Source of the DNA: Bacteroidota bacterium
Lineage (GTDB): Bacteria > Bacteroidota > Bacteroidia > UKL13-3
Direction: 5' to 3'
NCBI GenBank assembly: GCA_947491825.1
Contig: CANLLM010000013.1
Span: 1-37,885 of the forward strand
Length of the DNA stretch: 37,885 bases
Shown piece after piece: positions 19,652 through 37,885 of this stretch. The stretch's first letter is position 1, and each line of letters begins with the position of its first letter. A program made the translations under genes and the position numbers. Below the pieces are notes generated by a model. It was not told the DNA's origin. It was given only the letters and a program-made list of their open reading frames with translations, and made no database searches.

Positions 19652-19685
19652 TACTAAAGGCCGAAGTATCCTTCGGCCTTTAGTA
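19652..19685 (-). terminator. Strong terminator hairpin after PorP/SprF copy 1
   Basis: A perfect 15-bp inverted repeat with a 4-base TATC loop: TACTAAAGGCCGAAG (19652-19666) pairs with CTTCGGCCTTTAGTA (19671-19685). In the minus transcript a short U-run (complement of AAAA, 19648-19651) follows. It begins 25 bp after the PorP/SprF stop and closes the adhesin operon. The matching place after copy 2 has only the right half of the stem. Confidence 0.85.
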
Positions 19686-21298
19686 ATGTTGTATAATAAA
19701 CAATAATGATTACCAGTAATTCGCATCACTACGTCTACCAGATTTTCGCTGTGGCTTAAACTTAAATGCAATAGCAATTTCGTTTTGCGCAGGGGCATAT
19801 CGGGTAAATTCGCCTGTAAAGTGATAGTAATTATAGGCAACCAAAAAACTGTTAATATTAAAGCCAAGACCCGCAACAGCAGCTCCACTAGATCTATAAC
19901 CGAGTTGTAACTTAAATGCATCGTTAAAATACATGCTCAACAGTCCATCAATTACTTTTTGTGTATTGGTGAAATTATAAAAATTGATTACTGGTTTTAA
20001 ATAGTTCGTTGACGAGTGACCACCTAAATTAAACTTGTAGCTAGCGCCAACAAGTGCAAATGCACTAAGTGGATCAGAAACGCTTACCAACATAGGTGAT
20101 GCTGCATATACCTCTAAACCGTTGCGGCTTTGATAAAGTATTCCAGCACCTGTAGTAAATAAAAACTGATTAAGCTGGGGTGCATCAATATTAGGATCCG
20201 CAAGGTTAACATTCGAACTCAATAGGTCTTTATCTAAAGCCGTTTGAATAAATCCTAAACTTAATCCTAAACTCAAATGGTCATCTTTAGATAAATCAAC
20301 TTTAACGGAATAGGCAGCCTCTGCATTGGTGGTTTGAAAAACACCTGCATTATGACTGATAAACTTTAATCCAATTGATGAGTTGCCATATTTAGGTACA
20401 TTATTTAAAGGTGTATGTACACTAAAATTAATGGTTCTTGCAGAAGAACTCGCACCGCCCACTAAGGTACGGGCATTAAACATAGCAAATGGAGCGCCTG
20501 AGGTACCTGCAACTGCTGGATTAGCAATGAATGGATTTAACAACGTAGTGTAAAACGTTTCGCGGTATTGAGCATTAGCATTATTCGCTATAAATTGTAA
20601 TGCAACTAATACAATTGTTAACTTTATAAATTTCATCATACTTTGAGCCTACTTAATTACTTAACAAAAACATTTAGTGTACCCTTAAATTCTTTTCCAG
20701 TATTCGTGTTATAGAATAAGTAATAGTATACACCATTGGTTATTCTGTTACCTCCAACATTGCCATTCCAATCATTCTGGTAATTACTTGTTATTGAATA
20801 TAATTCAACACCTATGTCATTAAATATCTTTAAACTATAATCAGCATAAAGTATAACGTTTTCTATTTCGAAAAAATCGTTTACGCCATCTCCATCTGGC
20901 GACATGAAATTGTTTACTGGTAATGGCTTATTAAGCTCTATCTCATCACCCACATTTATCGTGATTTCTGCTGTATCTGAAAGTACATTTACTACTGATT
21001 GATTATCTCTAACCAATACTTTTATTTTGTATCTGTTTGTTTTCTCGTAATCGAACGCTACAGTATTAGTAAGTAATCCTGTATTTTCATCAATTTCAAA
21101 GAAATCAGTTGAGGTAATGATACTATACTTTAGAACAGATGAAGCATCAGGGCTTGAAGATGAAATCACACCAATACTAGTTCCAGCCGGATCATTCTCC
21201 TTTATGGTAAAGCTTTGATCATTTATTGAAGGTTTTTCTTTGGTATCAACTATATTAATTACAAAAGTATTTTCAAAAGTTTCGCCATCTTTATCTTC
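19672..21298 (-). repeat. Near-identical 1627-bp direct repeat, copy 1
   Basis: This stretch matches 28093-29719 at a constant offset of 8421 bp. The only difference I saw is A19700 versus G28121. It contains half of the terminator stem, the whole PorP/SprF gene, the 17-bp spacer and the last ~213 codons of the cadherin adhesin. Similarity drops abruptly at both ends, at 19671 and after 21298. Confidence 0.93.
19710..20639 (-). CDS. PorP/SprF-family T9SS outer-membrane protein, copy 1
   Basis: A 309-residue beta-barrel protein with a signal peptide (MMKFIKLTIVLVALQ...NANA) and the family's N-terminal LNPFIANPAVAG motif, followed by alternating beta strands to a basic C-terminus (KFKPQRKSGRR). 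PorP/SprF proteins are outer-membrane partners of the type IX secretion system. SprF of Flavobacterium johnsoniae is needed to export SprB, and such genes typically sit directly downstream of a cargo with a type B sorting domain, as here (17-bp gap after adhesin 1). It likely secretes or anchors that adhesin and binds PorE-like partners. Either of two adjacent ATGs could be the start. The protein is identical to copy 2. Confidence 0.95.
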   Translation of the reverse strand: MMKFIKLTIVLVALQFIANNANAQYRETFYTTLLNPFIANPAVAGTSGAPFAMFNARTLVGGASSSARTINFSVHTPLNNVPKYGNSSIGLKFISHNAGVFQTTNAEAAYSVKVDLSKDDHLSLGLSLGFIQTALDKDLLSSNVNLADPNIDAPQLNQFLFTTGAGILYQSRNGLEVYAASPMLVSVSDPLSAFALVGASYKFNLGGHSSTNYLKPVINFYNFTNTQKVIDGLLSMYFNDAFKLQLGYRSSGAAVAGLGFNINSFLVAYNYYHFTGEFTRYAPAQNEIAIAFKFKPQRKSGRRSDANYW

Positions 21299-24200
21299 TG
21301 TTTTAATTCTAACGTTGTAGGTTTTTTTCACCTCATAATCAGCAATAAAATTGCTAAACATTGAGTTGCCATCAATAATAAACAATGCGTTATCTTGGTC
21401 GCCCGCTCCTGCCGAAAGTGTGTAACTATGCTGATCGTTTACATCCTCATCTGTAACAGTAAAAACGCCTATTTGCTTCTGTACCGAATCGTTCTCAAAT
21501 AGTTTATTATTTGATAACCTTAGTTGTGTTGGGGCGTCATTATCATCTGTGATGTTGATGTTAAACTGACGATCAATGTTACCTCCCGAAGCATCAGTGC
21601 TTCTTAACCTTACATTGTATACTTTTTTATTTTCATAGTTAAATACAAAGTTGGTTAACAATGAATCGTTTGAAATTAAAAAGTCGTTGTTATTGGTAGC
21701 TCCATCTCCTGAAACCAATGAATATATAAAATTACCAAACTGATCAGCATCTGTTGTAGAGAGCTTGCCCACATAAGAGCGTGTAGGTCTATTTTCAGAA
21801 ACACTGCTGTTGTTTAACAACAGTTCAGAAGGAAGATCGTTGGTATCTTTTACATTGATGATAAATTGGCGCGTATAAAATGCTCCAGCCACATCTGTAG
21901 TTCTTACATAAACAATATATAAAATTTTCGATTCGTAATTGAAAACAGATGCGGTTCTTATCTCATTACCAAAAATAAAGAACAAGTCGTTATTGTTTGT
22001 CGAAACATTATCAAAACCATACGTAAACTGACTGCCTAAGTCTTGATCAGTAGAACTTAAGCTGCCTACATAACTTCCAATTGGAAGATTTTCTGTAATT
22101 AAATTATTACTTAGTGCTATTGCCGAAGGAGCATCATTACTATCTAAGACATTAATAATAAATGCCTTTTCAAATGTTCCTCCTCTTCCATCATTTGTTT
22201 GTATACGAACACTGTACTGGTTTACTGATTCATAATTAAATATTGCATTACTTAGGAGTTGGCTGCCCTGAATAACAAAACTGTTGTTGTTGGTAGACCC
22301 TGCTCCACTGACCAAATTGTAAGTGAATGTATTCACATCTTCATCGGTTGTGAACAAGTTAGCGACAAGCGTTCGGATAGGGGTGTTTTCTTTAATTTCA
22401 TTACTACTAATTGAAATATCAGTTGGTGCATCGTTTGTATTTAATATTAAAATATCAAACTGTTTTTCAAACCATAATGCACCACCATCAGTAGTACGTA
22501 ACCTAATACTGTAGTTTGTTTTGGTCTCAAAATCGAATGAATTTAAAGCATACAACGAGTCGTTGCTGATTCTAAACAAACTATTATTTACTGCACCAGT
22601 TCCACTTATCAGAGAATACATAAATAAATCTGTTACATCTGCATCACTCGAATAAAATGTTCCGATAAATGTTTGTTGTATGTTGTTCTCATTTACCGTA
22701 TTATTCGTAAGTATCAAGTTATTAGGAGCATCGTTTGAATCTATAATGTTGATTACAAACTGACGGGTTATGCTTGCGTATCCATCTGAACTTTGAATGT
22801 AAATATTGTAAATACGTTTGGTCTCATAATCAAAAATAACATTGCTTCTTAATTGATTACCTGTTATAAAGAAGTTGCTGTTATCATTGCCCGGTATATT
22901 GGCCAAGGTGTATGTAAAGAAGTCTAGGTCTTCATCGGTTGTACTGATGTTTGCTACTAAACTGGCAAATGGTTTGTTTTCCTTAATGGTAGTGCCACTT
23001 AAACTTATTTGCGTTGGCGCATCGTTGCTATCTGCTATGTTTATCGAAAAGGTGTCTTCAACCCATAAACCTCCGTTATCTGTGCTACGCACTCTTACAA
23101 AGTATTTACTTTTTTGCTCGTAGTTAAATGAGCTGTTGGTTTGCAATTGATTACCTAATATCACAAATGATACATTATCCGTTGAGCCTATGCCTGATAC
23201 CAAACTATAGCTAAAGGTATTGGCTAAATCAACATCTGTTGTACTAAACTCCCCAACTCGTGTACGATTTATTACATTCTCTCGTATGGTGGTATTGTTT
23301 ATTGAAAGTGCAGTGGGTGCATCATTACCATCTGTTATGGTGATGGTAAACTGGCGTTCGATAAACAACCCATTATCTGTGGTTCTTACCCTTATATAAT
23401 AGATGTTTTGGGTCTCGAAGTTTAATAATGAATTGGTATATAACGAATCGTTACTGATACGGAAACTTGAGTTGTGATTTGAGCCTACTCCTCCAACAAA
23501 ACTGTATATAAAAGAAACGGAGACCAAGTCAATATCTGTGGTGGTAAACCTTCCTATAAATGTACTTAATGGTCTGTTTTCCTGAACAAGGTTATTATCT
23601 AAGGTTAAATCTGTTGGTACATCATTACTGTCGGTTACGTTTATTAAAAATTGTTTTGTGAAACTGCCTCCGTTACCATCATTGGTTTGTATCTGTACCT
23701 GATATATTTGTTTTACCTCATAATTTAATGCTCCATTCAATTTTAATTGATTTCCATTAAGTAAAAAACTTGAGTTATCGTTGGTGCCTATATTGGCAAA
23801 CTGGTAACTAAATATATTGGAATCTTCATCAATGGTGCTTAATAATCCTACAACAGAACCTACTACTCTATTTTCGGTTATCACATTGTTGCTTAATAAA
23901 ATATTGGTTGGTGCATCATTAGTATTTAATATACTAATGTTAAAAGTATCCGTAAATGTTCCTCCATTACCATCGTTGGTTTGCACGCGGATTGTATAGC
24001 TGCTCTTTACCTCGTAGTTAAAAATACTATTGGTTAGTAGCTGATTTCCGATGATACTAAATTGGCTATTATTGATTGAGCCTACTCCTGATACTAATGA
24101 ATAACCGAATGTTTGGCCTACATCTGCATCAACAGTACTTAGTGTTCCCACTAACGTACCTGTTGGCATGTTTTCGTTTACAGATGTGATATTGACATTC

Positions 24201-27200
24201 AAATCTGTAGGTAAATCATTGCTATCACTTATAGTTATTGTAAACGCTTTTTGAAAGCCTAAGCTTCCATTGTCAGTACTTTGCACACGAATAGAGTATG
24301 AGTTCTTGAACTCAAAATTAAGTATCGCAGTAGTATACAAACTGTCATTACTAATGCGGAAACTACCATTATCAACACTGCCAGTTCCATTAGTCAATGT
24401 GTAATTAAAGCCGCTATTTACATCCGCATCAGTGCTACTAAATATACCTACTAATGCGCCTGTAGGTCTATTTTCCATTATACTATTAATACTTAATGCA
24501 ATATCGTTTGGAGCATCATTGCTATCTTTTACGTTTATTTGAAACTGCTTCACATAAACCCCTCCGTTACCATCATTAGATTGTATGTATACAAAGTACA
24601 CACTTTGTTGCTCGAAGTTTAATACACTATTGGTTCTTAACAGGTTGCCCGTTAATGTAAACAAGTTATTGTTATTGCCTATTAAATTGGCAAAGCTGTA
24701 TACAAACGTATTGACTAGGTCTTCATCTGTGGTGATTAATGTACCAATAACTGTATTGCTTGGCCTGTTCTCGCTTATACTATCGTTGCTTACTGTAATA
24801 TTGGTTGGTGCATCGTTGGTATTAATAACTGATATTACAAACTGTTTTTCGTACCACAAGCCTAGGTTATCTGTTGAGCGTACACGTATGGTATAGCTGT
24901 TTTTTAGCTCGAAGTTAAACTGAGATGTGGCACGTAATGTATTACCAGATATCATAAAATAGCCATTATCCGTGCTGCCTATACCGCTTACCAAAGTATA
25001 AAAGTAAGTGTTGCCGGTATCTTGATCAGTTGTACTAAACAATCCTACATTGGTATTAGCAACCATATTCTCGTTTATTGTTACCTCACTTAACGTTATA
25101 TTGGTAGGTGCATCGTTACTATTGCTTACATTTACTATAAATATTTTCTGAAAAATACCACCTTGGTTATCGCTGGTTTGAACTCGTATGGTGTAACTCG
25201 ATTGGTTTTCATAATCGAAAATACTGCTGCTGTACAAGCTGTCTTGCGAAACCACAAATAAACCGTTATGTGTTGATCCAATACCATTTACCAAACTGTA
25301 GTTATAGTTTATGTTGTTATCAGGGTCGGCTGTTGTTAAATTACCTATATACGTTTTTATTGCATTATTTTCTGATAACGTAGCGTTACTTAAAAATACA
25401 TTCGTAGGCGCATCGTTTACATTGCGTATAAATACTTGGATAAGTTTTGTAAATGAAGTTACACCTGATGTGGTTGTGATGTAAAGCGTATAGGTGTTTT
25501 TAAATTCGTAATCAAATACGGCATTGCTTCTTAACTGGTTACCCGAAATGATAAAGTTCGCATTGTCATGACCCGATACGGAATTGTTAAAACTATAGCT
25601 GTAGGTAACGTTCGTATCTTGATTGGTACTGCCAAATAATCCTATTAGCGTATTGGCTGCTGTATTTTCGTTTATGCTATCATTACTTAGTGTAATATTG
25701 GTTGGTGCATCAACTACATTTATTATCGATATAGAAAATATTTTCTCGTAAAATGCGCCTACATTATCTGATGTGCGTATACGTATACTGTAACTACTCT
25801 TAGTCTCGTAATCAAAAGATATTGAGGCCCGCAATACATTGCCCGATATGTTAAAGCTCGCATTATCTGACGAACCTAATCCGCTTACTAAGTTATAGGT
25901 AAACGAATTACTGGCATCCTGATCTATTGTTGTAAAGCTTCCTATGGGTGTGTTTATTGGAAGGTTTTCCTCAATTTGATTTTGTGTAAGGTTAATATTG
26001 GTTGGTGTGTCGTTCGCATCTAAAATGGTAATTATTTTTGTTTGCTGTAAAACTCCTCCGTTTCCATCTGATACTTGAATTCTAATGCTATAACTATTTT
26101 GGGTTTCGTAATCAAAAACCAAATTTGAGTACAAGGTATCGTTACTTATTTTAAAACCTGCATTTCCAGAACTACCAGCTCCAGACACAAGTGTGTATGT
26201 AAAAGTACCCGTTTCATCAGGATCAGTAGCTAAAATTTTTGCAACAAAATAACTAGTTGGAGTATTCTCGTATACCTGACCATTGGTCATGTTAATATTT
26301 GTTGGTGCATCATTACTATCAGTTACAGTTAGCAATAATTGTTTAGTAAATATGCCTCCATTACCATCATTTGTTTGAACAAAAATTACATAGTTCTGCC
26401 TCGTTTCATAATCAAAAAAAGCATTGGTGCGCAACTGATTACCGATAATAGAGAAATCACTATTATTATTACCTGCTGTGTTTATAAACGAATAGGAGAA
26501 CACATTATAAGAATCTTCATCATTGGTAGATAAAGTAGCAATAACAGCACCCAAAGGTTTGTTTTCTGCAAAACTTTTTCCAATAGCATTTCCATCAATT
26601 AAAATATTACTTGGTTCATCGTTTACGTCATTAACAACAACAGTTATTATACGCTCATAAATATTACTAGCGACATCGGTAACACGCACCCTAATAGAGT
26701 AAGTATTTTTTACCTCGTAGTTAAATGAAACAGAGGCACGAAGTGATTTGCCTGAAATATTAAAGCTGCTATTATTGGTGCTTCCTATACCTGCTACTAA
26801 ACTGTAAGTCATAACATCTCCCGAATCATTATCGTTTGCAGATAGCACACCAATAACGGCAGGTATTCCTGCGTTTTCTGATATAGAAGAATCGCTAATA
26901 AATATTCCAATTGGAGCAGTATTAACATCTAGGATACTTATTGTAAAAGGTTGCTCAAAATAGCAGCCTTTCGAATCCGTGGTTCTTACCCTAATGCTAT
27001 AAGCATTCTTTACTCCATAATTATATACCTGAGATGAACGAAGTGTATTACCTGATATATTAAATACGGCATTATCATTACTTCCAACACCTGATACAAG
27101 CGTATAAGTAAACGTTTCTGGAGAGTCGGGATCTACTGAAGTAAACGTACCAATACCAGTATTAACGGCAACCCCCTCGTTAATAGATGAATTACTTAAG

Positions 27201-27622
27201 TTTAATGCAGTAGGTAAATTGTTGTTTCTTAACGTGTATGGACTTGTGGTTACACCAAACGAAGCATTATCTTGAAACACAACACTTCCTTTGGCATCAT
27301 AAATAGTATCATTTAAAGCGTTATAAATTTTGAAAGTAACCGTTTCGCCTGAACTTGTATTGCTATACACAATAAGATAGGCAATATACTTTCCGTTAAT
27401 AACGGTGCTTGTTGATGATACGCCCCTACACGTTGAACCGACAAATGCTGCGATCTTGTTTGTTGGATTAACCAACTCAACACAATTTACATTAGCAACA
27501 GAAGTTACCGTCATAGAAAACTGAAACGCACTCGAATTTACAGTCCAATTTGGTGCTGCAGCTCTGGCTTGCATCATGCACAATAAGCATACAATAGCTA
27601 CTAATATTTTACTCATTCTCAT
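20657..27622 (-). CDS. Giant cadherin-repeat adhesin 1 with T9SS type B sorting domain
   Basis: 2321 residues if started at 27622, the ATG that aligns with adhesin 2's start at the same 15-bp gap from the upstream stop. An ATG at 27628 is also possible. In order: signal peptide (MRMSKILVAIVCLLCMMQARA); an N-terminal module beginning APNWTVNSSAF (to ~145); 21 cadherin-like repeats of ~99 residues with ENxPxGxxIG, DPD/DED, FDYE and NDAPT motifs that suggest calcium binding; then a C-terminal gliding-motility/type B sorting domain (MSPDGDGVNDFFEIEN, NGVYYYLFYNTNTGKEF). It should be exported by the T9SS as a long, SprB-like surface filament for adhesion or gliding, in partnership with the PorP/SprF gene 17 bp downstream. 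Ligand unknown. Confidence 0.95.
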   Translation of the reverse strand: MRMSKILVAIVCLLCMMQARAAAPNWTVNSSAFQFSMTVTSVANVNCVELVNPTNKIAAFVGSTCRGVSSTSTVINGKYIAYLIVYSNTSSGETVTFKIYNALNDTIYDAKGSVVFQDNASFGVTTSPYTLRNNNLPTALNLSNSSINEGVAVNTGIGTFTSVDPDSPETFTYTLVSGVGSNDNAVFNISGNTLRSSQVYNYGVKNAYSIRVRTTDSKGCYFEQPFTISILDVNTAPIGIFISDSSISENAGIPAVIGVLSANDNDSGDVMTYSLVAGIGSTNNSSFNISGKSLRASVSFNYEVKNTYSIRVRVTDVASNIYERIITVVVNDVNDEPSNILIDGNAIGKSFAENKPLGAVIATLSTNDEDSYNVFSYSFINTAGNNNSDFSIIGNQLRTNAFFDYETRQNYVIFVQTNDGNGGIFTKQLLLTVTDSNDAPTNINMTNGQVYENTPTSYFVAKILATDPDETGTFTYTLVSGAGSSGNAGFKISNDTLYSNLVFDYETQNSYSIRIQVSDGNGGVLQQTKIITILDANDTPTNINLTQNQIEENLPINTPIGSFTTIDQDASNSFTYNLVSGLGSSDNASFNISGNVLRASISFDYETKSSYSIRIRTSDNVGAFYEKIFSISIINVVDAPTNITLSNDSINENTAANTLIGLFGSTNQDTNVTYSYSFNNSVSGHDNANFIISGNQLRSNAVFDYEFKNTYTLYITTTSGVTSFTKLIQVFIRNVNDAPTNVFLSNATLSENNAIKTYIGNLTTADPDNNINYNYSLVNGIGSTHNGLFVVSQDSLYSSSIFDYENQSSYTIRVQTSDNQGGIFQKIFIVNVSNSNDAPTNITLSEVTINENMVANTNVGLFSTTDQDTGNTYFYTLVSGIGSTDNGYFMISGNTLRATSQFNFELKNSYTIRVRSTDNLGLWYEKQFVISVINTNDAPTNITVSNDSISENRPSNTVIGTLITTDEDLVNTFVYSFANLIGNNNNLFTLTGNLLRTNSVLNFEQQSVYFVYIQSNDGNGGVYVKQFQINVKDSNDAPNDIALSINSIMENRPTGALVGIFSSTDADVNSGFNYTLTNGTGSVDNGSFRISNDSLYTTAILNFEFKNSYSIRVQSTDNGSLGFQKAFTITISDSNDLPTDLNVNITSVNENMPTGTLVGTLSTVDADVGQTFGYSLVSGVGSINNSQFSIIGNQLLTNSIFNYEVKSSYTIRVQTNDGNGGTFTDTFNISILNTNDAPTNILLSNNVITENRVVGSVVGLLSTIDEDSNIFSYQFANIGTNDNSSFLLNGNQLKLNGALNYEVKQIYQVQIQTNDGNGGSFTKQFLINVTDSNDVPTDLTLDNNLVQENRPLSTFIGRFTTTDIDLVSVSFIYSFVGGVGSNHNSSFRISNDSLYTNSLLNFETQNIYYIRVRTTDNGLFIERQFTITITDGNDAPTALSINNTTIRENVINRTRVGEFSTTDVDLANTFSYSLVSGIGSTDNVSFVILGNQLQTNSSFNYEQKSKYFVRVRSTDNGGLWVEDTFSINIADSNDAPTQISLSGTTIKENKPFASLVANISTTDEDLDFFTYTLANIPGNDNSNFFITGNQLRSNVIFDYETKRIYNIYIQSSDGYASITRQFVINIIDSNDAPNNLILTNNTVNENNIQQTFIGTFYSSDADVTDLFMYSLISGTGAVNNSLFRISNDSLYALNSFDFETKTNYSIRLRTTDGGALWFEKQFDILILNTNDAPTDISISSNEIKENTPIRTLVANLFTTDEDVNTFTYNLVSGAGSTNNNSFVIQGSQLLSNAIFNYESVNQYSVRIQTNDGRGGTFEKAFIINVLDSNDAPSAIALSNNLITENLPIGSYVGSLSSTDQDLGSQFTYGFDNVSTNNNDLFFIFGNEIRTASVFNYESKILYIVYVRTTDVAGAFYTRQFIINVKDTNDLPSELLLNNSSVSENRPTRSYVGKLSTTDADQFGNFIYSLVSGDGATNNNDFLISNDSLLTNFVFNYENKKVYNVRLRSTDASGGNIDRQFNINITDDNDAPTQLRLSNNKLFENDSVQKQIGVFTVTDEDVNDQHSYTLSAGAGDQDNALFIIDGNSMFSNFIADYEVKKTYNVRIKTEDKDGETFENTFVINIVDTKEKPSINDQSFTIKENDPAGTSIGVISSSSPDASSVLKYSIITSTDFFEIDENTGLLTNTVAFDYEKTNRYKIKVLVRDNQSVVNVLSDTAEITINVGDEIELNKPLPVNNFMSPDGDGVNDFFEIENVILYADYSLKIFNDIGVELYSITSNYQNDWNGNVGGNRITNGVYYYLFYNTNTGKEFKGTLNVFVK
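20960..27225 (-). repeat. 21-repeat cadherin array of adhesin 1, period ~0.3 kb, higher-order period ~0.9 kb
   Basis: Repeats 3-20 fall into six b-c-a triads. Type b has GNNN/NDN with GNxLRTN and YxVYIQSND. Type c has ISNDSLY. Type a has GSTDN with ISGN or IxGNQL. Repeats 1-2 are a-like, and repeat 21 (KEKPSINDQSF) is a separate terminal type shared exactly with adhesin 2. Boundaries are approximate, set by the NDxPT motif that ends each repeat. Confidence 0.8.
27219..27622 (-). repeat. Near-identical N-terminal module repeat, copy 1
   Basis: Matches 33858-34261 at a constant offset of 6639 bp, with about two dozen differences by eye. Most of these lie in the signal peptide and at the inner edge, while 27241-27560 has only about half a dozen. 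It encodes the signal peptide and the APNWTVN module. Confidence 0.85.
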
Positions 27623-27637
27623 ATTCATTAATATCTA

Positions 27638-28092
27638 TTAATACTTAACTAATTTAGTTCTTACATCAAAGAGCAACAATTGATATAGTTAACTTGCCGT
27701 TTATAAAAGCAACTTGCTATCTAGATCTTACGTTTCTCCTAACTTCCCGTTGATAGTGCTTCATTAAAAAACTCGGGTCTAATTACATACTCATTTTGTT
27801 CTCGAGGCTTTCTGCATTATATGCAAAACATTTTTTTTGTAGCGAATTTCTGTGCATTCAGTTTCACTAAACATTACAGATCTAGGATAAGTAAATTATA
27901 TTACTAAGGCTGATTTATAAACATAGCCTTTTTTTATCATTGTAATTAAGCTAACAACACAATTAATATTTGCATCATACATAGCAAATTGAGTTTAACT
28001 GTTTACTAAATCTCCTTTAGTTGCTTTAAAATTACAAGTTTGGTAAAATTACCAACTAACCTATTTGCAATATAATTTAGAGCAAGTGCAAT
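27638..28092 (-). pseudogene. Decayed 3' fragment of a second LamG/T9SS protein gene
   Basis: This gap aligns with parts of the LamG gene at 34277-37885. 27638-27664 matches its last codons (VRTKLVKY and stop). About 27720-28020 matches ~34800-35123, including GCAGATCTAGGATAAG-like and AGCAAATTGAGTTT blocks. 28021-28092 matches ~35494-35565. Stretches of roughly 0.4-0.5 kb and ~0.37 kb are missing between the blocks. The second deletion lies between two TTGCATT(T)AAA sequences in the intact gene (35110s and 35494). An in-frame TAA at 27896-27898 replaces the Gln codon CAA of the intact gene (complement of 34982-34984), and small indels occur. Similarity is about 75-80% by eye. It cannot make a protein, and it ends exactly where the 1627-bp repeat begins. 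Confidence 0.88.
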
Positions 28093-29719
28093 TTCGGCCT
28101 TTAGTAATGTTGTATAATAAGCAATAATGATTACCAGTAATTCGCATCACTACGTCTACCAGATTTTCGCTGTGGCTTAAACTTAAATGCAATAGCAATT
28201 TCGTTTTGCGCAGGGGCATATCGGGTAAATTCGCCTGTAAAGTGATAGTAATTATAGGCAACCAAAAAACTGTTAATATTAAAGCCAAGACCCGCAACAG
28301 CAGCTCCACTAGATCTATAACCGAGTTGTAACTTAAATGCATCGTTAAAATACATGCTCAACAGTCCATCAATTACTTTTTGTGTATTGGTGAAATTATA
28401 AAAATTGATTACTGGTTTTAAATAGTTCGTTGACGAGTGACCACCTAAATTAAACTTGTAGCTAGCGCCAACAAGTGCAAATGCACTAAGTGGATCAGAA
28501 ACGCTTACCAACATAGGTGATGCTGCATATACCTCTAAACCGTTGCGGCTTTGATAAAGTATTCCAGCACCTGTAGTAAATAAAAACTGATTAAGCTGGG
28601 GTGCATCAATATTAGGATCCGCAAGGTTAACATTCGAACTCAATAGGTCTTTATCTAAAGCCGTTTGAATAAATCCTAAACTTAATCCTAAACTCAAATG
28701 GTCATCTTTAGATAAATCAACTTTAACGGAATAGGCAGCCTCTGCATTGGTGGTTTGAAAAACACCTGCATTATGACTGATAAACTTTAATCCAATTGAT
28801 GAGTTGCCATATTTAGGTACATTATTTAAAGGTGTATGTACACTAAAATTAATGGTTCTTGCAGAAGAACTCGCACCGCCCACTAAGGTACGGGCATTAA
28901 ACATAGCAAATGGAGCGCCTGAGGTACCTGCAACTGCTGGATTAGCAATGAATGGATTTAACAACGTAGTGTAAAACGTTTCGCGGTATTGAGCATTAGC
29001 ATTATTCGCTATAAATTGTAATGCAACTAATACAATTGTTAACTTTATAAATTTCATCATACTTTGAGCCTACTTAATTACTTAACAAAAACATTTAGTG
29101 TACCCTTAAATTCTTTTCCAGTATTCGTGTTATAGAATAAGTAATAGTATACACCATTGGTTATTCTGTTACCTCCAACATTGCCATTCCAATCATTCTG
29201 GTAATTACTTGTTATTGAATATAATTCAACACCTATGTCATTAAATATCTTTAAACTATAATCAGCATAAAGTATAACGTTTTCTATTTCGAAAAAATCG
29301 TTTACGCCATCTCCATCTGGCGACATGAAATTGTTTACTGGTAATGGCTTATTAAGCTCTATCTCATCACCCACATTTATCGTGATTTCTGCTGTATCTG
29401 AAAGTACATTTACTACTGATTGATTATCTCTAACCAATACTTTTATTTTGTATCTGTTTGTTTTCTCGTAATCGAACGCTACAGTATTAGTAAGTAATCC
29501 TGTATTTTCATCAATTTCAAAGAAATCAGTTGAGGTAATGATACTATACTTTAGAACAGATGAAGCATCAGGGCTTGAAGATGAAATCACACCAATACTA
29601 GTTCCAGCCGGATCATTCTCCTTTATGGTAAAGCTTTGATCATTTATTGAAGGTTTTTCTTTGGTATCAACTATATTAATTACAAAAGTATTTTCAAAAG
29701 TTTCGCCATCTTTATCTTC
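28093..29719 (-). repeat. Near-identical 1627-bp direct repeat, copy 2
   Basis: Partner of 19672-21298. Its left end at 28093 begins inside the former terminator hairpin: TTCGGCCTTTAGTA is kept, but the complementary half is replaced by the LamG gene fragment. It includes PorP/SprF copy 2 and the 3' end of adhesin 2. Confidence 0.93.
28131..29060 (-). CDS. PorP/SprF-family T9SS outer-membrane protein, copy 2
   Basis: 309 residues, identical in amino-acid sequence to the copy at 19710-20639, with the same signal peptide and LNPFIANPAVAG motif. It follows adhesin 2 by 17 bp and should serve as its T9SS outer-membrane partner. Because both PorP/SprF copies and both cargo sorting domains are identical, either copy should be able to serve either adhesin. 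Unlike copy 1 it has no complete terminator hairpin downstream, so transcription may continue through the LamG fragment into adhesin 1. Confidence 0.95.
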   Translation of the reverse strand: MMKFIKLTIVLVALQFIANNANAQYRETFYTTLLNPFIANPAVAGTSGAPFAMFNARTLVGGASSSARTINFSVHTPLNNVPKYGNSSIGLKFISHNAGVFQTTNAEAAYSVKVDLSKDDHLSLGLSLGFIQTALDKDLLSSNVNLADPNIDAPQLNQFLFTTGAGILYQSRNGLEVYAASPMLVSVSDPLSAFALVGASYKFNLGGHSSTNYLKPVINFYNFTNTQKVIDGLLSMYFNDAFKLQLGYRSSGAAVAGLGFNINSFLVAYNYYHFTGEFTRYAPAQNEIAIAFKFKPQRKSGRRSDANYW

Positions 29720-32700
29720 CACCCTTACCCTAACAGAATAAGTAGATTTAGTCTCAAAATCAGCAATAAAATTACTGAACAATGTTTTACCATCAATAAT
29801 AAATGAGCCATTGTCTTGGTCTCCAGAACCTACTACAAATTTATAACTATGGGCTTCGTTGGCATCCTCATCAGCAGTAGTAAATGCACCTATGCTTTTT
29901 TGTATAGAATCATTTTCTTGTAATTTAACAGCAGAAATTTTCAACTCAGTTGGTGCATCACTAGCATCTAAAACACTAATTGTGTAAGCACTTTCTATAA
30001 ATGAGTTTATCTGATCATTACTTCTCAAACGAACTGAGTATGTACGCTTATTTTCGTAATTAAATACCTGGTTGCTGTAAAGTGAATCTTGAGCAAGATA
30101 AAACAATCCATTATTTGTTGACCCTTCACCACTAGTTAAAGTGTAAGTAAAATTAGAGGCCTGATCAGGATCAGTTGTTGAAAGCTTTCCAACGAAAGTT
30201 CCAATAGGCCTATTTTCAAACACGGTATTATTATTTAGACTTAACAAGGTTGGCGAATCATTGGTGTCTTTGATGGTAATGATAAACTGTTTAGAATAAG
30301 CAGCTCCACTTTGATCTGTAGTTTTTAAATAGATAACATAAAGGCTTTTATTCTCATAGTTAAAGGTGACTGCAGTTCTTAGCTCGTTACCTAGTATGAA
30401 GAAGTTACTGTTGTCGCTACTTACAACGTCATCCAAATTATATACGAACTGATCTGCAGGGTCTTGATCGATACTTGATAAGCTAGCAACCTTAGCACCA
30501 GAAGATAAATTTTCTGTTACAACGTTATTGCTTAATATTATGTTTGTTGGTGCATCATTACTATCTAAAACATTTATGGTAAATACTTTTTCGTAAACAC
30601 CTCCATTAAGATCACTTGTACTTAAGCGAATGCTATATGTAGATACTGATTCGTAATTAAAAATACCATTTGTTCTGAGTTGGCTACCTTGAATAACAAA
30701 ACTATTATTATTGGTAGAGCCAGCACCACTAACTAGGCTGTATGAATAAGTATTAGCCAAATCTTCATCTATTGTTGATAGATTACAAACCACAGTTCGC
30801 GTAGGCAAGTTTTCCCTTATTTCATTTGAAGAAAGCTGAATGTCTGTTGGTACATCATTTATATCATTGATATTTATAACAAAAGTTTTTTCAAAAAATA
30901 AATTACCGGCATCAGTAGTTCTCATTCTTATATTAAACAACTTTTTGGTTTCGTAGTTAAACACAACCGAGCCATATAATGAATCATTACTTACTTTAAA
31001 GCTTAAATTATCATTAGATCCAACTCCATTAACAAGTGAATAAACAAAACCTCCTGGAGCGTCAGGATCTGACGTATTTAATAACCCAATAAAACTTGAG
31101 GTAGTCAGGTTTTCTGAAACGGCATTATTTGAAAGTATAATATCACTTGGAATATCGTTGCTATCAATTATGCTAATGGAAAACTGCTGACTGAAAATAC
31201 CGCCTTTGGTATCTGATGTTTGAACCTGAATAATGTGGATTTGTTTGGCTTCATAGTTAAAAACAGTATTCGTTCTTATCTCATTCCCGCTTATAAAAAA
31301 TCCGTTGTTATCGTTAGATGCGCTATTAATTAAACTATATACAAACTGACTCAGTGTGTCTTCATCGGTGGTGCTAAGCAAACCAATTAAAGAGCCAACA
31401 TTTTTATTCTCTTTAGTAGAATTATTTGATAAAGCCAACGCTGTTGGGTTATCATTCACATCAACAACGTTTATTGTAAATGAGTCACTTAAGATCCCAC
31501 CATTACCATCGCTTGTTTGTATACGTACTGCATACGAGCGCTTACTTTCAAAATTGAATACTGCATTTGTATAAATCTGGTTTCCAGCAATATAAAATTT
31601 ACTATTGTCTGTGCCACCGGTGCCAGAAATTAACGAATAGGTAAAACTCTGATTGAGATCAGGATCAATTGTTGTAAAAGTTCCGATTGACGTGCCAATT
31701 GACATGTTTTCATTAACCATCTTATTTGAAAGAGATAATGAAGTTGGGGAATCATTGCTATCTGTAACGTTAATAACAAAAGCCTTCTGGAAAGTCAGTA
31801 ATCCATTGTCTTGCGTTTGAACCCTAATATAAAGTGTACTTATTAACTCGAAATTTAAAATTACTGCACTAAACAAACTATCATTTCGTATTGAGAAACT
31901 AGCATTATGGGTTGACCCTAAGCCAGTAACTAGCGAATAAGTATACGTGTTTCCAGCATCAGGATCAACGGTATTAAGTAGTCCAATAAAACTACCAGAA
32001 GGGCGATTCTCTGTAATTGATGTTGAATTAAAATACACATCTGTTGGTGCATCGTTAATGTCTCTAACAAAAATTTGGATAGCCTTGACAAATGATACTG
32101 CACCTAATGTTGATTTCACGTAAATGGTAAAGGTTGATTTTGCTTCGAAATTAAAAACTGCATTTGTTCTTAATTGCTTTCCTGATATAATGAAGCTTGA
32201 GTTATCATTACCTGGAGCGGTATTATCAAAAGTATAAGTATAAGAGGTAATGGTATCTTGAGTTGTGCTCGATAGAAGGCCTATTAAAGAATTTGAAGGT
32301 TGATTTTCACTAATGGTATCATTTGAAATTACAATATTGGTTGGTGCATCAATCAAATTATTTACTGTAATAGTAAACTGTTTATCGAAAAACGCTCCAA
32401 CATTATCTGTAACCCTAATCCTTATGGTATAAACACTTTTTATCTCATAATCAAAAGATGCTGAAGACCTTAGCACATTGTCTGAAATATTAAAACTATT
32501 ATTATCTGTTGAACCAGCTCCCACAACGAGACTATAAGTAAATGTATTTGAAGCATCCTGATCAATGGCAGTTAAGTTGCCTATTGGTGTATTGGAAGGC
32601 GAGTTTTCATCTATTTGATTTTGTGATAGATTAATATTGCTTGGCAGATCATTACCATTCAAAATTGTAATGGTTTTGTTTAGTTGAAGCGTGCCTCCAA

Positions 32701-34261
32701 ATCCATCACTTACTTGTATTCTAATAGAGTATGAATTGGTAGTTTCATAATCAAAAATCACATTTGAATACAAACTATCGTTTCTAATCAAAAAGCTAGC
32801 ATTACCTGAACTTCCTGCGCCAGCAACTAATGAATATGAATACGTTCCTGTAGCATCAGGGTCAGTTGCCGACAATTTTGAAATAAAGGATGTTTGAGCT
32901 GAATTCTCATAAATCACATTATTGGACAAATTGATATTTGTAGGTGCATCATTACTGTCTATGATACCAATGACGAATTGCTTGGTAAAAAAACTACCTC
33001 CATCATCATCTGTCCTCACATAGATGATATAGTTCTGCCTTGTTTCAAAATCAAATAAATTGTTGGTTCTTAACTGACTTCCAACTATGAGAAATTGATC
33101 GTTATTATTTCCTGTTGTATTTACAAAACTGTAATTAAAAGTACTAAACGCATCTTCGTCTGTAGTTGTAAAGGTGCCTACAACCGAGCCAATGGGCTTA
33201 TTCTCTTTAATACTTGCACCAATGCTACTTCCATTAATTTGCATGTTAGTAGGTTCATCGTTGGTATCTTTTACGGTTATTACAAATGTTTTTTCAAAAA
33301 AACCATTTGCCGCATCTGTTACACGAACACGAATATTATAAAAATTCTTAAACTCAAAATTAAATGAAATAAGAGATCTTAGTGTATTACCTGTAATAGA
33401 AAAATTACCATTGTTTGTGCTTCCAAAACCAGGCACAAGGGCATAAGTATGCGTATCTCCTGAATCCGTATCAATTGGGGTAAACAAACCTACCACTGTT
33501 GGCGTATTTCCATTTTCTGTTACGTCTATATTACTGAGTGAGATACCCGTTGGTGGACCATTGACATCACGAATTGTGACCGTAAATTCACGTTCAAAAA
33601 AGCATGCCTTCGAATCAGTAGTTCTTACCCTAATACTATACGTATTTTTAATCCCATAATCAAAAATTGCATTCGATCTAAGCGATGAACCTAACAAATT
33701 GAAACTGGCATTATCCGTACTTCCTGTTCCTGTCACTAGGCTATAAGTAAAGGTTTCAGGCGAGTCAGGGTCAGTGCTAGTTAATGAACCAACAGTAGAG
33801 TTTACTGGCAAACCTTCAGAGATTATCGCATTGCTGATAGAAATAGCTGTTGGAGCATTGTTACTTCTTAACGTATATGGACTTGTAGTTACACCAAACG
33901 AAGCATTATCTTGAAACACAACACTTCCTTTGGCATCATAAATAGTATCATTTAAAGCATTATAAATTTTGAAAGTAACCGTTTCGCCTGAACTTGTATT
34001 GCTATACACAATAAGATAGGCAATATACTTTCCGTTAATAACGGTGCTTGTTGATGATACGCCCCTACACGTTGAACCAACAAATGCTGCAATCTTGTTT
34101 GTTGGATTAACCAACTCAACACAATTTACATTAGCAACAGAAGTTACCGTCATAGAAAACTGAAACGCGCTCGGATTTACAGTCCAATTTGGTGCCGCAG
34201 CTTTAGCTTGCATTACAACCAACAAGCACACAAGAGCTACTAATACTTTACAAATTCTCAT
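29078..34261 (-). CDS. Giant cadherin-repeat adhesin 2 with T9SS type B sorting domain
   Basis: 1727 residues with the same plan as adhesin 1: signal peptide (MRICKVLVALVCLLVVMQAKA), APNWTVN module to ~140, 15 cadherin-like repeats and a type B sorting domain (MSPDGDGVNDFFEIEN). The last ~213 residues are identical to adhesin 1, and the N-terminal module is nearly so. The first two repeat triads and the last two align by position with those of adhesin 1, but with clear divergence, and two triads are absent from the middle. It is expected to be a T9SS-exported surface filament. It starts 15 bp after the LamG protein's stop and 17 bp before PorP/SprF copy 2, so the three form one operon. Confidence 0.95.
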   Translation of the reverse strand: MRICKVLVALVCLLVVMQAKAAAPNWTVNPSAFQFSMTVTSVANVNCVELVNPTNKIAAFVGSTCRGVSSTSTVINGKYIAYLIVYSNTSSGETVTFKIYNALNDTIYDAKGSVVFQDNASFGVTTSPYTLRSNNAPTAISISNAIISEGLPVNSTVGSLTSTDPDSPETFTYSLVTGTGSTDNASFNLLGSSLRSNAIFDYGIKNTYSIRVRTTDSKACFFEREFTVTIRDVNGPPTGISLSNIDVTENGNTPTVVGLFTPIDTDSGDTHTYALVPGFGSTNNGNFSITGNTLRSLISFNFEFKNFYNIRVRVTDAANGFFEKTFVITVKDTNDEPTNMQINGSSIGASIKENKPIGSVVGTFTTTDEDAFSTFNYSFVNTTGNNNDQFLIVGSQLRTNNLFDFETRQNYIIYVRTDDDGGSFFTKQFVIGIIDSNDAPTNINLSNNVIYENSAQTSFISKLSATDPDATGTYSYSLVAGAGSSGNASFLIRNDSLYSNVIFDYETTNSYSIRIQVSDGFGGTLQLNKTITILNGNDLPSNINLSQNQIDENSPSNTPIGNLTAIDQDASNTFTYSLVVGAGSTDNNSFNISDNVLRSSASFDYEIKSVYTIRIRVTDNVGAFFDKQFTITVNNLIDAPTNIVISNDTISENQPSNSLIGLLSSTTQDTITSYTYTFDNTAPGNDNSSFIISGKQLRTNAVFNFEAKSTFTIYVKSTLGAVSFVKAIQIFVRDINDAPTDVYFNSTSITENRPSGSFIGLLNTVDPDAGNTYTYSLVTGLGSTHNASFSIRNDSLFSAVILNFELISTLYIRVQTQDNGLLTFQKAFVINVTDSNDSPTSLSLSNKMVNENMSIGTSIGTFTTIDPDLNQSFTYSLISGTGGTDNSKFYIAGNQIYTNAVFNFESKRSYAVRIQTSDGNGGILSDSFTINVVDVNDNPTALALSNNSTKENKNVGSLIGLLSTTDEDTLSQFVYSLINSASNDNNGFFISGNEIRTNTVFNYEAKQIHIIQVQTSDTKGGIFSQQFSISIIDSNDIPSDIILSNNAVSENLTTSSFIGLLNTSDPDAPGGFVYSLVNGVGSNDNLSFKVSNDSLYGSVVFNYETKKLFNIRMRTTDAGNLFFEKTFVININDINDVPTDIQLSSNEIRENLPTRTVVCNLSTIDEDLANTYSYSLVSGAGSTNNNSFVIQGSQLRTNGIFNYESVSTYSIRLSTSDLNGGVYEKVFTINVLDSNDAPTNIILSNNVVTENLSSGAKVASLSSIDQDPADQFVYNLDDVVSSDNSNFFILGNELRTAVTFNYENKSLYVIYLKTTDQSGAAYSKQFIITIKDTNDSPTLLSLNNNTVFENRPIGTFVGKLSTTDPDQASNFTYTLTSGEGSTNNGLFYLAQDSLYSNQVFNYENKRTYSVRLRSNDQINSFIESAYTISVLDASDAPTELKISAVKLQENDSIQKSIGAFTTADEDANEAHSYKFVVGSGDQDNGSFIIDGKTLFSNFIADFETKSTYSVRVRVEDKDGETFENTFVINIVDTKEKPSINDQSFTIKENDPAGTSIGVISSSSPDASSVLKYSIITSTDFFEIDENTGLLTNTVAFDYEKTNRYKIKVLVRDNQSVVNVLSDTAEITINVGDEIELNKPLPVNNFMSPDGDGVNDFFEIENVILYADYSLKIFNDIGVELYSITSNYQNDWNGNVGGNRITNGVYYYLFYNTNTGKEFKGTLNVFVK
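29381..33864 (-). repeat. 15-repeat cadherin array of adhesin 2, four triads
   Basis: Repeats of ~99 residues ending in NDxPT-like motifs. Repeats 3-14 form four b-c-a triads with the same signature residues as in adhesin 1 (GNNN/NDN plus GxQLRTN; RNDSLY or SNDSLY; GSTDN/GSTNN with ISDN or IQGS). Two a-like repeats precede them and the KEKPSINDQSF repeat follows. The array is two triads shorter than in adhesin 1. The two genes differ by 1782 bp overall, counted from matched starts. Confidence 0.8.
33858..34261 (-). repeat. Near-identical N-terminal module repeat, copy 2
   Basis: Partner of 27219-27622 (offset 6639 bp). It covers the signal peptide, the APNWTVN module and the start of the first cadherin repeat. 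Beyond 33858 similarity falls to that of the diverged repeat arrays. Confidence 0.85.
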
Positions 34262-34276
34262 TTTTAAAAATCTCTA

Positions 34277-37200
34277 TTAATACTTAACTAATTTGGTTCT
34301 TACAACATTGCCGTTACTTCTAATTTCAACAAAATACAATCCACTTTTCACTTCTACGCCTCTTGATTCAGCATTCCAATTCATGTTAACAGAATTACTC
34401 TTTCCAACATTTTTGTATTCAAATGCATCAACAAGCTTTCCTGTTACATCCAATACTTTCACACTAAGTGTTTCAGCAAGTGTTCCTTGTACATTAAACT
34501 GCACCTCTTTATTATAAGGATTAGGGAATGCATACATACTAATATTGCTTACTGCACCAGAATAATAGTCTTCACATTTTACAGTTGTTGTTGTTTGGGT
34601 TTGATATGGTGAAGATAAAGAGCCAACTAATTTACCGCTTCCAAAAAGCACCTTACCATCTAGGTCAAGTGTTGTTCCATTTTGTTCATCCAATAATTTA
34701 AATGTAATTTCTTCAGCGTTGCTATTAGATGATACATTTAAAAAGTATAGATGCTTACCATTACTCAACTTCGTTGGTTTGGTTATTCCCCTTACTTCAT
34801 TACCAACAAATGCACCAATACTTAATCTTCCTGTTGATAGCACCTCATTACAAAAACCAGGATCTAAGACCACGCTCATTGTATTTTCAAATCCTTCTGC
34901 ATTGTATGCAAAATATTTGCTTTGATAGCGATTATCTGCTGCTTCAGTTTTACTGAACATCGCAGATCTAGGATAAGCAAATTGTTTTACTGCTGCTGAT
35001 TTGAATACATAGCCTTTGTTAGGAAGCATGGTAATTAAACTACCAACCCAACCAATATTTGCATCGTAAACAGCAAATTGAGTTTGACTGCTTACCCAAT
35101 CTCCGCTTGTTGCATTTAAAGAAGAGAATGCTTCAATAACACTTAAATTTCTTTGAGATTGGAAGCCAATCCAATTCCAACCTGAATCTAAACGAATAGG
35201 TTGCAACGAAGGATTAACCTCAACACCAGTAATTACTAAAGTATCTGTGGTACTTGATTTCCAACGGTATGATTTTTCAGTTTTAACGCCTCTAACCGGA
35301 CTAGCAAGTGTTCCTGCCCAACCATTAAGCGATGTATAATCAGCATAATTAATTTGATCTTTAAAAATATCGCCTTCTGTACTTACCACATTTTTCAACA
35401 CTTTATTGATGTCAGTCGAGTCTTTCATTAATAAATTAAACGAAATCCAATTCCAACCTGCCATTACAGGTATATACCTGGTTATCTTATCAGTTGCATT
35501 AAAAATTTGAGGGCTGGTAATGTTACCCACTAAACTATTTGCAACATATGGAAGAGAAGGTGTAACTTCTGTATGGATTTTGCCTTCGGTAGCGTTCCAA
35601 ATTCTAAACTCAATAGTTTCTCCACTAGTAACATTACTAAAAACATTTATAAATGCGTAATAACGATCAACTTGTGAGAAATATTGAAGATTTGCAATAC
35701 CCCTGCATTGGCCATTAACAAATGCTGCCAACTTATCATCAGGATTGGTTGAAATAATGCTGTTAACCCTAATCTGCCCAACAATACTCATTGTATTTTG
35801 GAATGCGGCCGGATTAACTGACCATGATGAAGGTGGCTCAGCATATACCTTCAGTTTAATCAACAAACCATCTGGGTATCCAAAGTCTGTAAGCACTTGA
35901 ATTTCGTTTTCGTAAGCACCTATATTAACATTCGGATCAACGGTAAAGGTTACTGTAACTGTGCTGTTAGGCAAAATATTACCTGTTGCAGGACTAGCAG
36001 TTAACCAATCTGGTAGGTTTTGAATGGTGAATTGTTTAACCGCACCACCAGAATTAACAATCTTCGTATTAAATGACAATGCGGCCCCTTTTAATTTATT
36101 AAAAATAAAGTCTTGGTCTTGCCACTTCACTTGATTTTTCTCTATGAAAGCAATCCATGTTCTTGGAGATTGCATTTTGTTGCCATTAAGGTCATAAACA
36201 TCTTTTACTGTTACATCAAGCGTAACATTTTCAATTAATGCAGGCAGGGTATTTGGTGTAAGTATGATACGGTCATTATTTACCAAATAGGTAAAATTAA
36301 TGGCCTCAACAGGCCGTTGTAGTTTAATTTTAGCTGTTTCCGTATTTAATCCACTACCATTAGCTGTTGCTCCAGTAATAACACGAGTTGGCGATTTAAT
36401 ATCCTTAACACTAGGTGTTAAAATTGGCACACCCAAATTAATCGTATACAACTCAAACGGAATGTATAATGTCAAATCTGATTCGGTTCCACCTAACCTA
36501 TTAACAAAGTCTCTTTCTATCTGGAATTGAGTTCTTGCAGAACTCCAGATCCTAACTTCATCTACAAAACCAGTAAACAAACGATCCAATACATCAGCGC
36601 CAAAAGCTGGCTGATACGCTCTAGCACCAATCCAAATTTTGTTACCGCCAAACATTTCGAAACCAGATGAATTTACTGTATTATGCTGATTACCGTCAAC
36701 AAAAGCAGTTAAACTTGTTGCCCTTTGCATTACCAAAGCAAAATGATGCCAGTTACCATCAAAATAATTGGTTGTAACTGCCTCAAAATTGTAACCTTTA
36801 TGCTTAACATAAATCTTGCCGCTGGCATCTTTTTCAATACTCCAACGAATAGATGGATTAATATCTGTAGAATCGCCTTTACCATTAGAGAACAATGCTA
36901 CATTACCTCCAACGTTATTTCCTTTAAACCAAAATTCAATAGTGAAATCACTTTCTTGGGTAAATGCAATGTTTGATGCTTCAATAGTTAAAGGTTCGTT
37001 TACTATTTTATAAGAGCTTCCTTTAGGTGTTATTTCCCATACTGCGTTAACAATCTCAGCATTTCTTGAACGGATATAATCTTTAGCTGTATTGGTTTTC
37101 GCTTCATTAAACCTCCAGTTTGCAACAATCCCGGCTTCTGTTCCTTTTAAAGTTCTATTAATAGAGCTTAGGATTTCCGATGACGTTCTGGTTTTTGACC

Positions 37201-37885
37201 ACAACCTAAAGTCTCTTAAGTTACCTATGAATGCAAGGCTATTATCGTATGAAAGTTTACCGATAATTGTTTTTCCTCCACCCTCATATTTAGTAAAAAT
37301 AGTGGTGTTACCTGTGTTACTAACTACCCCATTTAAAAACAACTCACACCTATTTAAATCTGAGTTATAAGAAACCGTGTAATGGTTGTAATTTACCAAA
37401 TCTGTAACCGCAGTATTGCTAAATACCTTATCGGTGCCAATCTGGAGGTAAAACTTATTAGCTGCGTCAAAGCCTATAGCAAAGTATTGATTTGGATCAA
37501 TGCCTTGTGAGAAAACAACTTGTTGTCCTAAAGCATCTCTTCTTGCCCAAAACTCGAGTGAGAAAGATTTTTTGTTCAGGTTTAATCCTGTTGGAATCTC
37601 CACATAATCATTATTGCCATCGAAATAAATACTTACGTTGCTTTCTGTTGCGCTTCCGTTAAGCACACCTCTAATATCAAAGTTTTGGAAACTGAGAGAA
37701 GCATTATCTATTGGTTCATTAAATTGTATGCTAATCTCATCGTTTGGAGATAGTATACCATCAGCTGGAGAAGGATTTCCGAATGGTGCAGGATTTATAC
37801 GATCTGCTAATCCACGGTTAACCTCTGATTCCATAAGTGCATCCGGATGATTAGGAGCGGAACACCTGCTCACAGCTCTTATGTC
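34277..37885 (-). CDS. LamG/Ig multidomain surface protein with T9SS type A sorting domain (5' part off the right edge)
   Basis: The frame is open to the right edge (about 1,202 visible codons), so the start is outside the window. In order: an SbsA-like Ig domain (SPADGILSPNDEISIQF); two LamG/concanavalin-like domains (FSLEFWARRD ... FRLWSKTRT and FTIEFWFKG ... DEVRIWSSART); another Ig-like stretch and a BACON/Ig-like domain (NLPDWLTASPATGNI); two copies of a module like the adhesins' N-terminus (SWSVNPAAFQNTMS and AYNAEGFENTMSVV), separated by twin AGWNWISF and SGWNWIGF domains; and a type A Por sorting tail (FPNPYNKEVQF ... KSGLYFVEI, VRTKLVKY). It probably binds glycans or surfaces and is exported and anchored by the T9SS. 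It leads into adhesin 2 with a 15-bp gap. A decayed relative lies at 27638-28092. Confidence 0.92.
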   Translation of the reverse strand, partial: DIRAVSRCSAPNHPDALMESEVNRGLADRINPAPFGNPSPADGILSPNDEISIQFNEPIDNASLSFQNFDIRGVLNGSATESNVSIYFDGNNDYVEIPTGLNLNKKSFSLEFWARRDALGQQVVFSQGIDPNQYFAIGFDAANKFYLQIGTDKVFSNTAVTDLVNYNHYTVSYNSDLNRCELFLNGVVSNTGNTTIFTKYEGGGKTIIGKLSYDNSLAFIGNLRDFRLWSKTRTSSEILSSINRTLKGTEAGIVANWRFNEAKTNTAKDYIRSRNAEIVNAVWEITPKGSSYKIVNEPLTIEASNIAFTQESDFTIEFWFKGNNVGGNVALFSNGKGDSTDINPSIRWSIEKDASGKIYVKHKGYNFEAVTTNYFDGNWHHFALVMQRATSLTAFVDGNQHNTVNSSGFEMFGGNKIWIGARAYQPAFGADVLDRLFTGFVDEVRIWSSARTQFQIERDFVNRLGGTESDLTLYIPFELYTINLGVPILTPSVKDIKSPTRVITGATANGSGLNTETAKIKLQRPVEAINFTYLVNNDRIILTPNTLPALIENVTLDVTVKDVYDLNGNKMQSPRTWIAFIEKNQVKWQDQDFIFNKLKGAALSFNTKIVNSGGAVKQFTIQNLPDWLTASPATGNILPNSTVTVTFTVDPNVNIGAYENEIQVLTDFGYPDGLLIKLKVYAEPPSSWSVNPAAFQNTMSIVGQIRVNSIISTNPDDKLAAFVNGQCRGIANLQYFSQVDRYYAFINVFSNVTSGETIEFRIWNATEGKIHTEVTPSLPYVANSLVGNITSPQIFNATDKITRYIPVMAGWNWISFNLLMKDSTDINKVLKNVVSTEGDIFKDQINYADYTSLNGWAGTLASPVRGVKTEKSYRWKSSTTDTLVITGVEVNPSLQPIRLDSGWNWIGFQSQRNLSVIEAFSSLNATSGDWVSSQTQFAVYDANIGWVGSLITMLPNKGYVFKSAAVKQFAYPRSAMFSKTEAADNRYQSKYFAYNAEGFENTMSVVLDPGFCNEVLSTGRLSIGAFVGNEVRGITKPTKLSNGKHLYFLNVSSNSNAEEITFKLLDEQNGTTLDLDGKVLFGSGKLVGSLSSPYQTQTTTTVKCEDYYSGAVSNISMYAFPNPYNKEVQFNVQGTLAETLSVKVLDVTGKLVDAFEYKNVGKSNSVNMNWNAESRGVEVKSGLYFVEIRSNGNVVRTKLVKY

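Follow-up and report, generated by a model that had tools for sequence, protein, structure and literature searches.

In H. pylori, the adhesin gene pairs babA/babB and homA/homB combine near-identical ends with a divergent, allele-defining middle, and their 3' segment is in concerted evolution through within-strain gene conversion (PMC4552749, PMC2795765). In F. johnsoniae, sprB-sprF and similar pairs consist of a gene for an adhesin with a type B CTD and, immediately after it, that of the shuttle (PMC12618676, PMC9143113); SprB is bound, and presumably anchored, by SprF (PMC9143113). Pairing between type B tails and PorP/SprF-like shuttles is specific there, high-identity tails can share a shuttle, and most CTDs have only 20-30% identity to one another (PMC12618676). 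The pattern of like ends and an unlike middle is thus known from H. pylori; for T9SS adhesins it is apparently unreported, as no report of tandem or converted genes of this kind was found in open-licence papers, nor any evolutionary record of how sorting-signal/shuttle pairs stay matched while giant adhesins diversify.

The locus described here belongs to G000, a metagenome-assembled genome of a Bacteroidota bacterium (2.5 Mb, 148 contigs, 88% complete), and the window, 37,885 nucleotides long, is its entire contig C13. Like the F. johnsoniae pairs, it encodes type B adhesins each followed directly by a shuttle; unlike them, it holds a tandem of two pairs that differ in their adhesin bodies and agree fully in CTD and shuttle. 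With the bab and hom pairs it shares like ends, an unlike middle and a homogenised 3' part, but it is a direct tandem within the T9SS of Bacteroidota and its homogenised stretch continues through the shuttle gene. No phase-variable repeat tract was seen in it, and any switching would be hypothetical. The locus is probably a tandem two-allele T9SS adhesin locus built stepwise, by the joining of a second unit, the exchange or arrival of a different adhesin body, and later homogenisation of the copies.

Organisation of the tandem operon

Transcription on the minus strand runs through LamG, adh1, porP1, a LamG remnant, adh2 and porP2 (Table 1). The sequence-only reading had proposed that the order LamG, adhesin, PorP occurs twice in tandem, and gene calls, domains and a self-comparison of the window bear this out: 19672-22495 corresponds to 28093-30919 (85%), 25390-27668 to 32028-34307 (71%) and 27743-28030 to 34827-35120 (78%), an order and homology of blocks that are not due to chance. 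PF13585 is present in both adhesins; TIGR04131 scores above cut-off in adh1, and the adh2 tail is identical, which places both among type B proteins. The PorP/SprF gene (PF11751 and TIGR03519 above cut-off) lies directly downstream of the adhesin, with 17 bases between the open reading frames. Cadherin repeats are spaced 297-300 bases apart, and the 596-aa difference in adhesin size amounts to about six of them. The LamG protein, about 3120 aa in relatives, is represented by its last 1202 aa, its 5' part being missing because the window is the whole contig and the contig end cuts the gene.

Table 1. Coordinates of the features of the tandem operon within the window.
Feature	Position	Strand	Description
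porP2 terminator	19654-19689	minus	intrinsic-terminator-like hairpin; conserved in relatives
Export module, copy 2	19701-21298	minus	exactly identical to 28122-29719
porP2	19710-20639	minus	PorP/SprF-like shuttle gene
adh2	20657-27628	minus	2323 aa; cadherin repeats; T9SS type B CTD; chimera
adh2 body	21299-27235	minus	cadherin repeats of about 99-100 aa each; G001-type allele
adh2 head tract	27236-27529	minus	aa 34-131; 98% identical to 33875-34168
LamG remnant (decayed)	about 27638-28092	minus	blocks collinear with LamG; stops in all three frames
Junction	28090-28105	minus	hairpin arm GGCCGAA joined to LamG; candidate microhomology GAAGTT
Export module, copy 1	28122-29719	minus	exactly identical to 19701-21298
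porP1	28131-29060	minus	PorP/SprF-like shuttle gene, identical to porP2
adh1	29078-34261	minus	1727 aa; cadherin repeats; T9SS type B CTD; body allele of G006/G007/G008
adh1 head tract	33875-34168	minus	counterpart of 27236-27529
LamG gene, 3' part	34277-37885	minus	1202 aa; two Laminin_G_3 (LamG_3) domains; T9SS type A CTD

Both adhesin-PorP pairs are intact, and the adhesins are constrained against their orthologues (dN/dS 0.04-0.08), in agreement with the earlier statement that both pairs were kept. The accompanying suggestion that selection has kept two filament versions is made plausible by this constraint, from which selection itself would be a further step. Antigenic variation with one expressed locus and silent partial donors was considered and rejected: neither adhesin gene is partial, both are constrained, and a genome-wide search of the 88% complete assembly for the adhesin head and for the export module returned only these two copies.

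One LamG domain (residues 674-792 of the 1202-aa fragment) and the adhesin head domain (33869-34261) are 37-40% identical in relatives, so that the two big proteins of the operon share one module. The head fold was modelled with moderate confidence (pLDDT 75); a PDB search with the model gave nothing significant (best E 0.04), and neither the head nor PorP had a sequence match among solved structures. Elsewhere in the window, a 3098-aa open reading frame on the minus strand (3-9296), cut by the contig start, has a BNR-associated N-terminal domain as its sole Pfam match. The flanking 816-aa gene on the plus strand (16845-19295), without a Pfam match, is intact in G000 and G007; in G001 (L036:1528-3978) it is split into two separate open frames and may therefore be broken there. 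No known RNA families were found in the window.

Single-copy forms in related genomes

The comparison within the genus covered nine genomes, four of them at least 90% complete. The single-copy operon that the earlier reading had asked for in relatives is present at the same locus in four other genomes of the genus, and each of them has a single PorP of this kind. Bodies of the adh1 type, 85-91% identical at the nucleotide level, occur in G006 (JAIXWD01, from a pond), G007 (CALPIR02) and G008 (CANHBJ01); the G007 and G008 copies are split over contigs, and the latter is seen without its downstream flank. The adh2 type of body occurs in G001 (DITN01, UBA6183), whose adhesin is as long as adh2 (2323 aa), 85% identical to it in nucleotides and collinear over 7.9 kb. 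No closer donor of this body was found among 64 genomes of the family, the next best after G001 (85%) being G012 (66%), and the tandem itself was found in one of the nine genus genomes and no second. In G012, which belongs to another genus, contig C53 (L064-L066) carries a pair of LamG-adhesin-PorP operons separated by about 30 kb, whose adhesins are long (2346 aa) in the one and short (1739 aa) in the other.

The second adhesin is a chimera

The protein encoded by adh2 is a chimera of an own-lineage leader and head (aa 1-131), a G001-type body of about 1,980 aa, and an own tail followed by its PorP. The leader is 83% identical to adh1, 79% to G006 and 62-65% to G001. The body reverses this order, with 53-69% identity to adh1, 56-70% to G006 and 81-86% to G001, the exception being aa 1021-1140, only 63% identical to G001. 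Head and tail return to the local type and reproduce the bab-type pattern: within G000 the tails are 100% identical (85% to G006, 74% to G001) and the heads 98% (83% and 79%), around the divergent middle.

Phylogenies agree with this division. Protein trees of LamG and of the tail follow the species order, with which PorP is compatible, and the body tree separates the two G000 genes and groups adh2 with G001 with full support. For the body, AU tests accepted adh2 with G001 and rejected the alternatives (p=6e-6, 2e-8); for leader and head they accepted adh2 with adh1 (alternatives rejected at p about 0.03), as they did for the tail (p 0.008-0.03, adh2 with G001 at 0.008). Between adh1 and adh2, dS is saturated in the body and dN reaches 0.35, deeper than the species divergence, against a dS of 0.44 in the leader (wide limits) and 0.06 in the head. 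The claim that adh2 descends from adh1 and then diverged consequently fails for the body, an allele of G001 by nucleotide identity as well as by topology, and the daughter topology holds for head and tail. Duplication of the adhesin with nothing but divergence afterwards was rejected on the body topology (AU p about 6e-6).

Sharing of such bodies across operons is not a one-off, as a second case exists in G001. There, paralogous operons on contigs C2 (L037:14487-16395) and C21 (L069:8624-10520) share a nearly identical adhesin body, which begins abruptly near aa 130, at the same head/body junction, and is 90.6% identical over 1.6 kb, with patches of 98-100%. Their LamG proteins and heads are deeply diverged, with roughly half of the bases alike. 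These operons resemble the tandem in their LamG-adhesin order and in the onset of the shared body at about aa 130; they differ from it in not being in tandem and in being seen only up to the body, within which both contigs end.

A homogenised export module

The two copies are exactly identical over 1598 bp, a stretch that takes in the adhesin's final 213 aa, with the type B sorting signal, and all of porP. About 338 synonymous sites in this module are without change, and its ends are abrupt: the last 30-base bin inside has 0 mismatches and the first outside has 16. The head tract is a second such segment, with 5 differences in 294 bp (98.3%) and bodies about 53-69% alike beside it. Since the unhomogenised parts of the two copies differ by about 16-22%, the identity of the module shows recent homogenisation, and the idea of a second copy that had diverged as a whole does not hold for the CTD and PorP. 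Recombination between the copies, whether gene conversion or unequal crossing-over, is the simple reading. Selection for matched export could explain why tail and shuttle were homogenised jointly, and the same picture would be left by a neutral conversion tract that stops once the bodies are too dissimilar.

Junction, LamG remnant and terminator

The remnant consists of four LamG blocks (35569-35502, 35115-34826, 34666-34628 and 34305-34239), collinear and separated by internal deletions. It is 78% identical to the LamG gene of G000 over 458 aligned columns and 68% identical to that of G001, shares states with the G000/G007 clade, and is grouped with G000 in the best tree, its placement with G000 over G007 not being significant. 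None of the four relatives carries it: a search for it returned only LamG genes and short adhesin-leader matches. The stops in every frame, together with the deletions, confirm the proposal that the second LamG is a broken 3' fragment that decayed, and the predicted breakpoint near 35570 agrees with the start of the remnant, which aligns to position 35569. The best-kept block is the last one, spanning the LamG stop and the adh2 leader, a preservation that would be expected if this block still serves adh2 translation.

At the other side of the joint (28092/28093), half of the porP terminator hairpin abuts LamG sequence. The full hairpin is present at porP2 and in all four relatives; porP1 keeps the first arm only. 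This cut through the hairpin upholds the earlier view that a segment from inside LamG to the porP terminator was added in tandem. Read by eye, the sequence is GAAGTTTACTTC in the hairpin loop of G007 and G001 and GAAGTTAC in LamG at the remnant edge, which makes a six-base microhomology joint likely. With the porP1 terminator lost, LamG to porP2 are probably transcribed as one operon: transcription starting at the LamG promoter, outside the contig, would pass the half terminator and continue through adh2 and porP2 on a single transcript. A consensus search of the remnant for a Bacteroidetes-type promoter found none, an outcome of little weight.

Origin of the locus

In the favoured scenario, a unit of LamG 3' end, adhesin and porP would have been joined behind porP in or near the lineage of G000 itself, through recombination of the porP terminator hairpin with a site within LamG, and the LamG stub would have decayed later. 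Next, the cadherin body of adh2 would have been exchanged for, or have arrived as, the allele of the single-copy operon of G001, with leader, head and tail remaining of the local type. Finally, recombination between the copies would keep the type B CTD and PorP identical and the head nearly so.

The timing of these events may be approached through synonymous differences. The adh2 and G001 bodies have a pS of 0.52 (1847 codons), below the pooled value of 0.65 obtained for LamG, PorP and aldehyde dehydrogenase (permutation 0/1000). In closer pairs, body and LamG pS are 0.50 and 0.43 (G000-G006) and 0.36 and 0.30 (G000-G007); slow body evolution as the cause of the likeness to G001 is therefore not favoured, the body being at least as fast as LamG in both. 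A body below the background and otherwise no slower than LamG suggests an exchange after the G000-G001 split, with only moderate confidence because of gene-to-gene spread (G000-G001 pS 0.56 for aldehyde dehydrogenase, 0.62-0.66 for the flanking 816-aa gene) and window heterogeneity. Remnant and leader both belong to the own-clade type, and their divergence is close to that of the G000-G007 split (species pair dS 0.38-0.41), which would date the joining event near that distance. A very recent duplication of the whole unit was rejected, because remnant and leader differ by 16-22%. The lineage may have duplicated its own copy and then had the body replaced, or it may have received a unit with the second body from a close unsampled relative.

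The same data allow an ancient tandem duplication before the G001 split to be weighed, which we regard as unlikely. Under this hypothesis G001 deleted the adh1 unit, the G006, G007 and G008 lineages deleted the adh2 unit and G000 kept both, with conversion resetting head, tail, PorP and remnant. It would explain why both bodies are old, with saturated dS between them; deletion between modules or head tracts would yield both single-copy forms of the relatives, and the aldehyde dehydrogenase value is near that of the body. It needs, however, at least three independent losses and the conversion of leader and remnant as well, both of which show own-clade instead of old states (leader 83% to adh1 against 62-65% to G001). 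A placement of the remnant before the G001 split obtains a bp-RELL of about 0.02 (p-AU 0.075), and the pooled synonymous divergence of the body lies below the background, though bodies are otherwise slightly faster than LamG.

An assembly artefact, in which alleles of two strains were joined through the shared 1.6-kb module, is very improbable. The evidence on the tandem is the metagenome assembly rather than reads, from one genome of the species; the contig comes from a fragmented 148-contig assembly, and the exact repeat, difficult for short reads, sits where an assembly graph would fork. Yet the junction of half terminator and decayed LamG occurs in no single-copy relative and requires that a second unit truly follows a copy of porP, and the downstream flank of the operon is conserved with G007 and G001. 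The assembler could mask a few copy-to-copy differences within the repeat, though not differences on the scale of the roughly 16-22% found in the unhomogenised parts. A tandem duplication after which the second adhesin simply diverged fits the block order and truncated LamG and stands for the joining event itself; it is rejected for the body, 85% identical to and collinear with that of G001 against 53-69% to adh1 (p=6e-6), and as a full account is extremely improbable.

Implications

On the stepwise account, the cell would display two surface filaments that differ in body, have head and secretion signal in common and could use either shuttle. The locus, with its direct repeats, would be prone to collapse, and the products would be the two single-copy forms found in relatives. 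A more tentative idea, possible at best, is that the tandem serves as a store of alleles in active use: the 1.6-kb modules could recombine with loss of 8421 bp, or the head tracts with loss of 6639 bp, collapsing the operon to an adh1-only or adh2-only form. Each form would retain an intact LamG, PorP and terminator, and conversion would keep export signal and shuttle identical, so that cells of one population could switch filament. Body cassettes would move among species and operons of this family by way of the fixed head/body junction.

Homogenisation of the type B signal and its PorP/SprF shuttle as one 1.6-kb unit, with the adhesin body swapped, is what cognate pairing of signal and shuttle would predict, and the locus offers a concrete place for testing adhesin allele exchange in environmental Bacteroidota.
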